Assembly: GCA_030529135.1 (NCBI GenBank)
Contig: JAUMXO010000001.1
Span: 79,335 to 115,425, forward strand
Source: Candidatus Saccharimonadota bacterium
GTDB taxonomy: Bacteria; Patescibacteriota; Saccharimonadia; Saccharimonadales; Saccharimonadaceae
DNA: 36,091 nucleotides
Reading direction: 5' to 3'
The notes under the pieces were generated by a model. That model searched no databases, was not told where the DNA came from, and saw nothing but the letters and a program-made list of their open reading frames with translations. Positions within the stretch are counted from its first letter, which is position 1, and each line of letters starts with the position of its first letter. The translations under genes were made by a program, and so were the position numbers. This document shows, in pieces, positions 2-25,773 of the stretch.

Positions 2-364
2 GTCAACGGCATGATTGCTGCAGACCACCTACTTTTACCGGTTCAAACCGAATTCTATGCGCTTGAAGGTGTGGCTCAATTGCTCGAGACGATGAAGCTA
101 GTCAAAAAACAGGCCAACCCAAATCTTACCCTTCTCGGTGTGCTCGCTACTATGTATGATAAGCGTACCAGTTTGTCCGCCCAAGTTTTTACCGAAATTA
201 AAAAATATTTCAAAGAGTTAACTTTTAAGACTACTATTCCTAGAAACGTTCGCGTAGCCGAAGCTCCATCTCACGGTGTGCCAGTCGGTGATTATGATAA
301 ATTTTCGCGTGGTGCCAAAGCTTATAAAGGCTTCGCTAGGGAAGTGGAGGAACGTACCAAATGA
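2..364 (+). CDS. parA: ParA/Soj chromosome-partitioning ATPase, C-terminal part (5' end outside window)
   Basis: This is the last ~120 codons of a ParA/Soj-type ATPase, which moves or positions origin regions together with ParB. The frame is open back to the window edge, so the Walker A part is missing and the Met at position 11 is internal. What is visible is the typical ParA end: a hydrophobic strand with LLLPVQTEFYALEG, then a TMYDKRTSLS segment (ParA family: T.yd.R..ls), then TTIPRNVRVAEAPSHGVPV, the hallmark of Soj proteins. It overlaps parB by ATGA, so the two are one operon and probably translationally coupled. Confidence 0.93.
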   Translation, partial: VNGMIAADHLLLPVQTEFYALEGVAQLLETMKLVKKQANPNLTLLGVLATMYDKRTSLSAQVFTEIKKYFKELTFKTTIPRNVRVAEAPSHGVPVGDYDKFSRGAKAYKGFAREVEERTK

Positions 365-18797: not shown

Positions 18798-18803
18798 CAC
18801 GAT

Positions 18804-19144
18804 GAGCCTGAAAGATGGCCGCCTGGTTTTCAGGAGGAAAGTCCGGGCAACAGAGAGCATGGTAGTCGCTAACAGCGACCGTCCGTAAGGATAGGGAAAG
18901 TACCACAGAAACTAAACTGCCCACCGATTATCAAGGGCGATGGTGAAAAGAGTGAGGTAAGAGCTCACGGTATACTATAGCGATGTAGTATAGAGGCAAA
19001 CCCTACTTGTTGCAAGGAGTACTATCAACCTCTGCTCGAGGATGTACGCTTACCGCTTGAGCATTATAGCAATGTAATGTCTAGATAGATGGTCATCAAC
19101 TATATATTATATATAGTTACAGAACCCGGCTTATAGAAGGCTCG
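18804..19144 (+). ncRNA. rnpB: RNase P RNA, bacterial type A
   Basis: Catalytic RNA that matures tRNA 5' ends. P1 is GAGCCT at the start with AGGCTC at the end. The universally conserved GAGGAAAGTCCGGGC lies near 18834-18848, and ACAGAACCCGGCTTATAG (19119-19136) is the conserved 3' block. The internal stretch GGCAAACCC...GCAAGG corresponds to the P15-L15 region that pairs with the tRNA CCA end, with GGC where E. coli has GGU. The length of ~341 nt is usual for type A. It has its own extended -10 and terminator. Confidence 0.95.
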
Positions 19145-19150
19145 ATTATT

Positions 19151-24176: not shown

Positions 24177-24530
24177 GGGGCTGACAAAGCTTAGACGGAC
24201 TGTTAACAGATTTGATGCGTGCCGATTAAATACCGTAAGTATTGAATAAGTGCTAAAAACACTAAAGCTATGCATGTTGCATACATGCCAGCTTATGCTT
24301 AAGATATTTTAAGCTGGTCTTTGTGTGAGGTTCCATAGCATAAAGATTATCATATTATGGGAATAAGGTTATTTTAGTGGCGAAAAATAACCCGAAAACT
24401 AGCCTGCGCATTTATCAGTTTCGTTTTCTGCAGCTGATGATATTTGCTAAGACAAAACAGGAAACTATACACGTAGATTCAGATCCCAGTGATAGCTCGG
24501 ACCCGGAGGCAGTATCCGGCAGCTCCACCA
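24177..24530 (+). ncRNA. ssrA: tmRNA (transfer-messenger RNA), unusual T-loop
   Basis: Rescues stalled ribosomes with SmpB. The 5' GGGGCTG pairs with 3' CAGCTCC (one G-U), then A and encoded CCA. GACGG and GATGCGTGCCGA match the conserved 5' blocks. The tag frame reads from a GCT resume codon (24252), preceded by TAAGT with A at -4: AKNTKAMHVAYMPAYA, then TAA (24300-24302). The stop lies in the loop side of helix 5 (CCAGCTTA/TAAGCTGG). The T-arm has a perfect CCGGA/TCCGG stem, but its 7-nt loop is GGCAGTA instead of the TTCRANY form (E. coli tmRNA TTCAACT). A 53-codon ORF crossing the 3' half is incidental. Confidence 0.9.
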
Positions 24531-24564
24531 TAGAGTAATATTTAGGATAAAACATGATCACAAG

Positions 24565-24590
24565 AAATAAGCCGCAAGGCTTATTTTTAG
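24565..24590 (+). terminator. tmRNA terminator
   Basis: AAATAAGCC (24565-24573), GCAA, GGCTTATTT (24578-24586), then TTAG. A 9-bp stem with a GNRA loop. Confidence 0.75.
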
Positions 24591-24635
24591 TTTATTTCGA
24601 ATCCGAACTCAGATAAATTTATTTATCTGAGGAGG

Positions 24636-24893
24636 ATGATGAAAAAAACTAAAAACAACTTTGTTGTTTCTTGTGATTATGTTCTAGAAAAGAACGATAG
24701 TGGACGACTTTGCGTCAGCAAACGTCGACTACACTACAAGCATCCGACTTTTTGCAAAGCAAAAATGTCGCCTGCTACAAAAACCACATCACAAAATCAA
24801 TTAGTACCAAATTATTCGCAAAAACACCCCATTTCACCACGTATCGTTGTAAAAAATACAACACAAAACCCAAAATCACAAAACAGGGGATAA
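24636..24893 (+). CDS. Doubtful small ORF after tmRNA
   Basis: 85 codons starting MMKKTKNNFVVSCDYVL, basic and Asn/Gln/Thr-rich towards the end, no family recognised. In its favour, GAGGAGG stands directly before two in-frame ATGs (24636, 24639), and a perfect hairpin (CAGATAAA/TTTATCTG, 24610-24629) leads into it. Against it, spacing to the ATG is too short, the 3' half is simple CA-rich sequence, and another frame is also open. An internal inverted repeat (TTTTTGC/GCAAAAA near 24748-24764) interrupts it. It may be a decayed gene. Confidence 0.25.
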   Translation: MMKKTKNNFVVSCDYVLEKNDSGRLCVSKRRLHYKHPTFCKAKMSPATKTTSQNQLVPNYSQKHPISPRIVVKNTTQNPKSQNRG

Positions 24894-24941: not shown

Positions 24942-24970
24942 TTGCATTTTTATTTCGCTTGTGCTATAGT
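24942..24970 (+). promoter_or_regulatory. Promoter of the structured RNA
   Basis: TTGCAT (24942-24947), 17-bp spacer, TATAGT (24965-24970), with the start near 24977. The gyrB promoter has the same -35 and spacing. Confidence 0.7.
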
Positions 24971-24976
24971 GAAAAT

Positions 24977-25370
24977 AGTCGTGATGACTAAAATAAAAAT
25001 AATAAATAAAAAAGGAAAATCGCATGAAAAATCATGCCAATCATCAAAAAGAACCATAAAAAAACGTCCTTGGCGGACCAAAAGGTAATTTCTAGCCATA
25101 AATTACATTCTAGGAATTACCTAGAGCTCCGCTAAGTGAAGCGAAAGCTTCAAGAAGCGTCGAGCGCGTTAGCAAATCTTTCGTTAGCACCTTATAAATC
25201 CATAAACCAGAGCGAAAGAAAAAACTAGCAAGGACCTATGCTTCACCTCTGCGTGAAGCGGTCAAACGGAGAAAGTGGCAAGGTTGCGGCCAATAGTTAA
25301 GATTTAGGCGCCGGATAACCTTCCACTTTTCCCCATATAAAATGTAACCTCACACACATTTTATAAGGGG
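24977..25370 (+). ncRNA. Large structured RNA of unknown class
   Basis: About 390 nt with many perfect helices. Long-range: GTCCTTG 25066-25072 with CAAGGAC 25229-25235, and GCGGA 25073-25077 with TCCGC 25128-25132. Local: 25084-25095/25110-25121 (12 bp, one U-G); TGAAGC-GAAA-GCTTCA 25137-25152; TCTTTCG/CGAAAGA 25177-25183, 25213-25219; GCTTCAC/GTGAAGC 25240-25246, 25253-25259; 25271-25278/25323-25330 continuing as AAGGTT/AACCTT 25280-25285, 25317-25322; and 25331-25344/25357-25370 (13 of 14 pairs). It has its own promoter. It matches none of the classes I can recall (RNase P, tmRNA, SRP, 6S, group I or II introns). Only an 11-codon ORF precedes it. The next gene has a separate promoter, so this is probably not a leader. 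Confidence 0.6.
25024..25059 (+). CDS. 11-codon ORF at the 5' end of the structured RNA
   Basis: MKNHANHQKEP then TAA. AAAGGA lies 7 nt before the ATG, an ideal distance, and the ATG is in a small hairpin (GCATGA-AAAA-TCATGC, 25022-25037). It ends 6 nt before the first long-range helix. It could be a leader peptide whose translation controls folding of the RNA. No run of identical codons suggests amino-acid attenuation. Confidence 0.4.
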   Translation: MKNHANHQKEP

Positions 25371-25407
25371 ATGGCACTTGGGGGATTGTACTAGTAATAA
25401 AATATGA

Positions 25408-25413
25408 TACAAT
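25408..25413 (+). promoter_or_regulatory. Leaderless-type promoter
   Basis: TATGATACAAT gives TGA plus TACAAT, then 6 nt (AAGCTT), then the ATG at 25420. Confidence 0.6.
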
Positions 25414-25419
25414 AAGCTT

Positions 25420-25773
25420 ATGTCAAGTAGCTTTGTTGTGAAAATAGCAGGAATCCTGAGTCTCGCAGCTCTTATTCTCATGCTTACGCTAACATCACCT
25501 ATGGAGATTGGCCCGTTAGGTGTTTTAGTTTTTTTTACAACACTATATATTACCATCTTTAGCGCAGTTTCACTCATCTGGCAGGCTTTTACGCGGCTTG
25601 CTTTCAAAAAAGAAGCTATGCGTCGTCGAGACTATCTCTGTTCTGCGGTGCTAGCTTTTGGCCCAATTATGATTATTTTGGCGCGTTCCTTTGGTGCAAT
25701 CAACCTCTGGACACTCTCGCTGATTGCTCTTTTTTTAATTTTGACCGAATTTTTAGTTTACAAAAAAGCCTAA
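25420..25773 (+). CDS. Small membrane protein of unknown function
   Basis: 117 residues with four hydrophobic segments (about 6-24, 29-50, 71-88 and 92-112). A basic loop between the second and third (RLAFKKEAMRRRDY) should be cytoplasmic. No family recognised. There is no Shine-Dalgarno; the -10 spacing predicts that the mRNA begins at the ATG. It precedes the low-complexity and TraD-like pair by 50 nt. Confidence 0.6.
   Translation: MSSSFVVKIAGILSLAALILMLTLTSPMEIGPLGVLVFFTTLYITIFSAVSLIWQAFTRLAFKKEAMRRRDYLCSAVLAFGPIMIILARSFGAINLWTLSLIALFLILTEFLVYKKA

Follow-up and report, generated by a model that had tools for sequence, protein, structure and literature searches.

Housekeeping RNAs conserved throughout a class are few, and most were thought to be known. 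Other large structured RNAs, such as OLE, GOLLD, ROOL and raiA, have functions that are unknown or only partly known. For Parcubacteria, the absence of both ffh and ffs has been reported (PMC4508563). Saccharibacteria can be grown with hosts and are transformable (PMC10633639). We analysed a window of 36,091 nucleotides from a Candidatus Saccharimonadota bacterium, that is, the whole stretch of DNA presented above, to which all positions refer. An initial annotation had proposed that it encodes a large structured RNA, free and transcribed from its own promoter, that belongs to no recognised class. This proposal is supported by the comparative analysis reported here, the free state being deduced from sequence and not from RNA-seq.

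Position, promoter and identity of the RNA gene

The structured non-coding RNA gene lies on the forward strand at 24977..25385, its 3' end being approximate, and is defined by its fold stability, by homologues in the genus and by syntenic equivalents across the order. It is flanked by the tmRNA gene (24177-24530) and by a forward-strand gene for a 117-aa membrane protein without Pfam family (25420..25773), which was used as a syntenic marker. Other genera, as well as another order of the class, likewise have a comparable small membrane protein gene behind the RNA. The promoter (24942..24970, forward strand) consists of TTGCAT at 24942-24947, a 17-nt spacer and TATAGT at 24965-24970, with an extended -10 TGC. 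From the promoter sequence, transcription is expected to start near 24977. The predicted folding energy of 24977-25385 is -123.7 kcal/mol, compared to -84.1 +/- 6.3 kcal/mol for 100 dinucleotide shuffles (z -6.3), none of which (0/100) reached the stability of the natural sequence.

The 3' end is not fixed by the sequence; the CCCCA..ACUUGGGGGA element of the relatives extends to about 25385. A strict scan for U-tract terminators behind the RNA in the window's family found only 1/20, which leaves the 3' end, and how far the RNA is independent of the downstream gene, less clear there than elsewhere. The downstream gene has a separate promoter on the forward strand (TTGTAC-16-TACAAT, 25386..25413). 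Its -10 element TACAAT (25408-25413) ends six nucleotides ahead of the ATG at 25420, and this promoter is therefore of the leaderless type. Both the TTGCAT-17-TATAGT promoter and the separate leaderless-type promoter of the initial annotation thus held.

Searches with all 4227 families of Rfam 15 gave no match to the RNA at the gathering threshold and none that was credible at E<=5, and its divergent relatives gave no match either. No group I or group II intron, nor any other Rfam covariance model, matched the RNA. The tmRNA model (RF00023) did not match 24977-25385, cmscan placing tmRNA solely at 24177-24530. Class A RNase P RNA (RF00010) was located at 18803-19148 and gave no match in the RNA. 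No 6S RNA (RF00013) model match was obtained at E<=2 in permissive scans, and bacterial SRP RNA (RF00169) gave no covariance match. The earlier view that the RNA is not RNase P, tmRNA, 6S, SRP or an intron is therefore upheld by the Rfam covariance scans. Near 24550-24690 and 25322-25373, cmscan returned weak miRNA-family matches, which arise from long inverted repeats and were discarded as chance. No published description of the RNA was found in the literature searched, though the supplementary tables of a human-microbiome study (PMC8040213) might list it unnamed.

SRP RNA was not detected over cut-off in any of 60 genomes of the order or 116 of the phylum. The Ffh M domain (PF02978) was found in 0/31 genomes of the order and in 14/14 controls. 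In the window's own genome, a search for the SRP S-domain pattern returned 10 matches compared to 7 in a reversed control, which corresponds to chance. Since neither the Ffh M domain nor SRP RNA is detected in the order, in agreement with the report on Parcubacteria, we conclude that the RNA is not an SRP RNA.

The neighbouring tmRNA (24177-24530, RF00023; tag AMHVAYMPAYA-stop from 24267) was detected by Rfam and missed by ARAGORN. Directly behind it, at 24541-24690, is a very stable nested inverted repeat of 150 nt (-60 kcal/mol), in which a long outer stem encloses three others. Its first stem could be the tmRNA terminator, and the repeat as a whole may resemble a small repeat of the mobile-element type; both suggestions are tentative.

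Anatomy and covariation of the RNA

Within the genus, blastn with the RNA stretch gave a match in 34/36 genomes, the window's own counted. Thirty-three were clear, and one weak match came from a genome that is only 59% complete (G008). At the same sensitivity, only 1/25 genomes from other families of the order was matched, weakly. Thirty genus loci were aligned. They share a promoter, a small 5' hairpin, an A-rich linker, usually a Shine-Dalgarno sequence with an ORF of 4-12 codons, a P1/P2 domain, a multibranch helix, two core hairpins (H1, and H2 with its outer helix) and the CCCCA..ACUUGGGGGA element. A TTGNNN-16..18-TANNNT promoter is present upstream in 30/30 of these homologues, and the spacing between the parts differs among loci. 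In two genus members (L027 and L028), insertions of about 300-500 nt separate the 5' domain from H1.

All parts lie on the forward strand. The 5' hairpin AGUCGUGAUGACU (24977..24989) is followed by an A-rich single-stranded linker and is kept among the genus relatives; a 5' hairpin with an A/C-rich loop (GUAAG..AAAACAAAAA..CUUAC) is found again in other families. A genus-specific mini-ORF, MKNHANHQKEP-stop, stands behind an AAAAGG Shine-Dalgarno sequence (25024..25059). In the 5' domain (25070..25135), defined by the genus alignment, helix P1 (25070-25076 with 25129-25135) covaries and encloses P2 and a nearly invariant loop, CCAUAAAUUACA. P2 (25084-25095 with 25110-25121) is itself nearly invariant, with one compensatory change. 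The long-range multibranch helix (25168-25172 with 25225-25229) shows compensatory changes in 5/5 pairs, and the helix inside it (25177-25185 with 25211-25219) in 5/9 pairs.

The core hairpin H1 (25233..25265; GAC / GCUUCAC ... GUGAAGC / GGUCAA) has compensatory changes, and its counterpart in other families is CGCUC...GAGCGGUCAGUCA. The core hairpin H2 (25271..25330), whose topology recurs across the order and in held-out sequences, comprises an outer helix (25271-25278 with 25323-25330) and a stem (25281-25290 with 25310-25321) with compensatory changes in 7/10 pairs. A constant G.U pair adjoins a 2-nt GA bulge (25314-25315). The 3' element CCCCA ... ACUUGGGGGA (25331..25385) is overlaid in the window by a private long hairpin (25331-25370). 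The CCCA/UUGGGG element is present in most genus relatives, from which the long hairpin is absent.

The consensus of 20 relatives backs about ten helices, including the helix that closes the 5' domain and the long-range multibranch helix, in line with the earlier count of at least eight helices, two of them long-range. Two stems that had also been listed, the GAAA-capped one (25138-25151) and the long terminal one (25331-25345 with 25356-25370), are not conserved in the relatives; they are private to the window's genome and were rejected as conserved elements. Two further pairings were examined and set aside. A pairing of the P2 5' strand with AAUUACA of the P2 loop was rejected because in L024 the outer P2 pair is altered on both sides together (GGC/GCC) while the loop stays the same. 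A CACCUU-AAGG pseudoknot and a GGUCA-UGAC kissing interaction, inspected by eye, were inconsistent across relatives.

Covariation was assessed in MAFFT alignments built without structure, by counting against shuffles and slid controls and not by tree-based R-scape. The shuffle control leaves relatedness in. The slid control keeps relatedness and agrees with it. In the full genus alignment (20 sequences, 69 pairs), 91.3% of the cells are paired, compared to 38-47% when slid. Thirty-two pairs are changed on both sides, with 115 doubly changed cells versus 40 +/- 5 shuffled. The genus 3' core (23 sequences) is 98.7% paired and has 48 doubly changed cells versus 12. Corresponding values are 27 versus 9 for an alignment of the order, and 19 versus 6 for a held-out alignment restricted to sequences that had no part in the model R2 (see below). 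Across the alignments, 91-99% of the cells are paired, and under 54% when slid. Thus all four alignments, including the held-out one, yield covariation in favour of the structure, and the signal is strongly positive in the genus, order and held-out sets.

Distribution in the order, the class and beyond

A covariance model of the genus 3' core, R1, found the RNA in other genera of the window's family. E-values of our home-made models are rough. The downstream 876-aa HerA/VirD4-like ATPase is present in 144/148 genomes of the order. Because the ATPase is universal in the order, its upstream region was taken from 40 genomes of many families. R1 matched 20/40 of these loci, all on the correct strand and about 1.0-1.6 kb upstream of the ATPase. 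The motif GCGGTCA[GA] occurs at the syntenic site in 38/40 genomes. In the two genomes without it (L063 and L069), the RNA was located at the syntenic site by R2, in whose training neither had been included. An equivalent RNA is therefore present at the same place in practically all 40 genomes of the order, as well as in two from another order of the class. This class-wide conservation goes beyond the initial annotation, some of whose helices are at the same time private to one genome.

Outside the window's family the RNA takes a compact form, made of a promoter, a 5' hairpin with an A/C-rich loop, H1 (CGCUC..GAGCGGUCAGUCA) and H2 (GGUAAG-CGCU..AGCG-GA-UUUACC). The topology of H2 is alike in the large and compact forms, with the constant G.U pair, the 2-nt bulge and a C-G pair. 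Under strict filters, R2 matched 35/117 genomes of the class, five of them from families outside the order. R2 misses the window's own genus, which R1 finds, and alone it scores the window's family weakly. The link between the window's family and the compact form thus rests on synteny, on the topology of H1 and H2 and on R1 and R2 matches across the divide, many of which are weak (E 0.003-0.03).

Among the five genomes from outside the order, L129, L130 and L133 belong to another order of the class. In L129 and L133 the RNA lies directly upstream of the same type of membrane protein; the similar RNA of L130 was not seen to be followed by such a gene. In L131 and L132, H2 is present in a different neighbourhood. 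The RNA occurs as one copy per genome, at a fixed position upstream of the small membrane protein and the HerA/VirD4-like ATPase. A search with the exact pattern of the compact core in 84,980 prokaryote species, one genome per species, returned 52 records with a single match each. All informative record titles name Saccharibacteria, Saccharimonas or Patescibacteria, the others reading only 'bacterium'.

Applied to 380 genomes of the phylum, R2 matched eight from the order, one from the class and, weakly, six from elsewhere. Five genomes outside the class (L092, L093, L097, L099 and L100, the last two from a further search) possess an intergenic, A-rich RNA that is flanked by a promoter and a terminator and carries an H2-like hairpin at its 3' end. 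Those of L093, L097, L099 and L100 are plainly related to one another. Homology of these outside RNAs to the Saccharibacteria RNA is conceivable, H2 being the only part in common. Other matches (L095, L096, L101 and L102), located in or beside either coding sequence or unrelated terminators, were dismissed as chance. L093, L097, L099 and L100, which belong to family f81 of another class, carry a conserved elaborate RNA of about 400 nt with A-rich linkers and its own promoter and terminator; in at least three of the four, a DksA-like gene follows. L093 and L097 did not match any Rfam family, and the f81 RNA is a candidate RNA class of its own.

Reading of the RNA and comparison with known systems

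The RNA is likely a free, independently transcribed gene, an inference made from sequence alone without transcript data. A promoter of consensus type (TTGAC[AT]-17-TANNNT) is found within 190 nt upstream of H1 in 48/52 exact-pattern loci, compared to 0.05 expected from dinucleotide shuffles. Strict intrinsic terminators occur within 80 nt behind H2 in 6/17 loci of other families (0.05 expected). A loose terminator scan was uninformative, 29/54 shuffles being positive, and was replaced by the strict one. The downstream gene has its own -10 element just before the ATG in the window and, by inspection, in most relatives. It is this combination of consensus promoter, terminators behind the core in other families and a separate downstream promoter that supports a free RNA.

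We favour, at a probability of about 0.62, the reading that this is a vertically inherited, free structured non-coding RNA of the Saccharibacteria class with a trans-acting housekeeping role. That role is inferred from sequence; no transcript has been seen, and no protein partner or target is known. A conserved H1/H2 core, maintained by compensatory changes, would be combined with a variable 5' domain that is large in the window's family. The RNA would act in trans and would most probably serve to scaffold an RNA-protein particle, although no partner is known. What suggests a scaffold is that unpaired or irregular positions hold the constant letters, namely GCGGUCA[GA], an AAUAGU-like loop and, in H2, the G.U pair with the GA bulge; such a pattern fits a protein-binding or tertiary core. 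If the best-cultivated branch of the Candidate Phyla Radiation possesses a single-copy RNA of this kind, with a consensus promoter and no entry in Rfam, its minimal genomes would keep an undescribed RNA machine.

Contact with the translation machinery may also be envisaged, on weaker grounds: the genus has added a ribosome-binding site and mini-ORF, and several relatives carry GCACCUU or an anti-Shine-Dalgarno sequence in the 5' domain. In 25/30 genus homologues, compared to 2.06 expected from dinucleotide shuffles, the RNA has in its 5' part a Shine-Dalgarno sequence with ATG and short ORF. GCACCTT (GCACCUU) is found in 11/20 family members, with 0.57 expected, and in only 1/18 compact members. 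Both kinds of motif are lineage-specific, and therefore we regard them as additions and not as the core function. As separate observations, the mini-ORF peptides of the window and L002-L036 (MKYK-stop, MKxxKARNKP-stop and similar) often end in Lys-Pro-stop, with synonymous differences among the MKYK copies, and a perfect anti-Shine-Dalgarno sequence, ACCUCCUUU, is present in the RNA 5' domain of L129, L130 and L133. In a bolder version, which remains speculative, the RNA would belong to a Patescibacteria-wide housekeeping class, the H2 module of L092, L093, L097, L099 and L100 marking one ancient translation-contacting particle where SRP is undetected.

Four alternatives were considered. The RNA could be a base-pairing sRNA whose single-stranded GCACCUU or ACCUCCUU loops block the Shine-Dalgarno sequence of target mRNAs. 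The frequency of GCACCTT in the family (11/20 versus 0.57) and the occurrence of ACCTCCTTT in three class-level relatives speak for it. However, the motif is missing from most compact members despite their conserved core, and a structural core constant throughout the class is unusual for such sRNAs, which makes this reading unlikely.

Somewhat less unlikely is a cis-regulatory leader, a riboswitch or attenuator of the small membrane protein gene in which the terminator acts as the switch. In its favour, this gene is usually the one immediately behind the RNA, with an intervening terminator in several families, which is how an attenuation riboswitch is laid out. However, in the window and, by inspection, in most relatives the gene has its own promoter, with a -10 element six to nine nucleotides before the ATG, the use of which has not been measured. 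Moreover, the gene behind the RNA is further off or different in L038, L040 and L131, and no conserved alternative anti-terminator pairing was found.

We consider it very unlikely that the RNA is a messenger or leader for the mini-ORF peptide (MKxxKARNKP-stop and the like), its structure being merely untranslated region. The mini-ORF in 25/30 genus members would agree with this, but a sister genus (g32, L037-L040) retains the structure without such an ATG mini-ORF, and peptide length ranges from 4 to 12 residues. Finally, a divergent SRP 4.5S or 6S RNA missed by the covariance models, which would fill a role left unaccounted for by the lack of SRP RNA over cut-off in the order and phylum, is very improbable and largely refuted, since the Ffh M domain itself is undetected and there is no S-domain motif, 6S match or 6S-like rod.

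The favoured free housekeeping RNA can be compared with known systems. Like tmRNA, it is a large structured RNA with its own promoter and, in the window's genus, a short internal reading frame; however, it has no tRNA-like domain or CCA end, and the reading frame starts at an ordinary SD-AUG. With 6S RNA it shares the character of a free housekeeping-type RNA with its own promoter, and its compact members are of similar size, but its core is formed by two separate hairpins, whereas 6S RNA is a single long rod whose central bubble is open. Bacterial SRP RNA would be expected as a small housekeeping RNA; unlike it, the RNA lacks the Ffh-binding motif (CAGG..GGAA..AGCAG S-domain). OLE, GOLLD, ROOL and raiA differ from it in lineage, size and architecture and in that it has no Rfam match, but like them it was discovered by comparative genomics and possesses an elaborate conserved fold.
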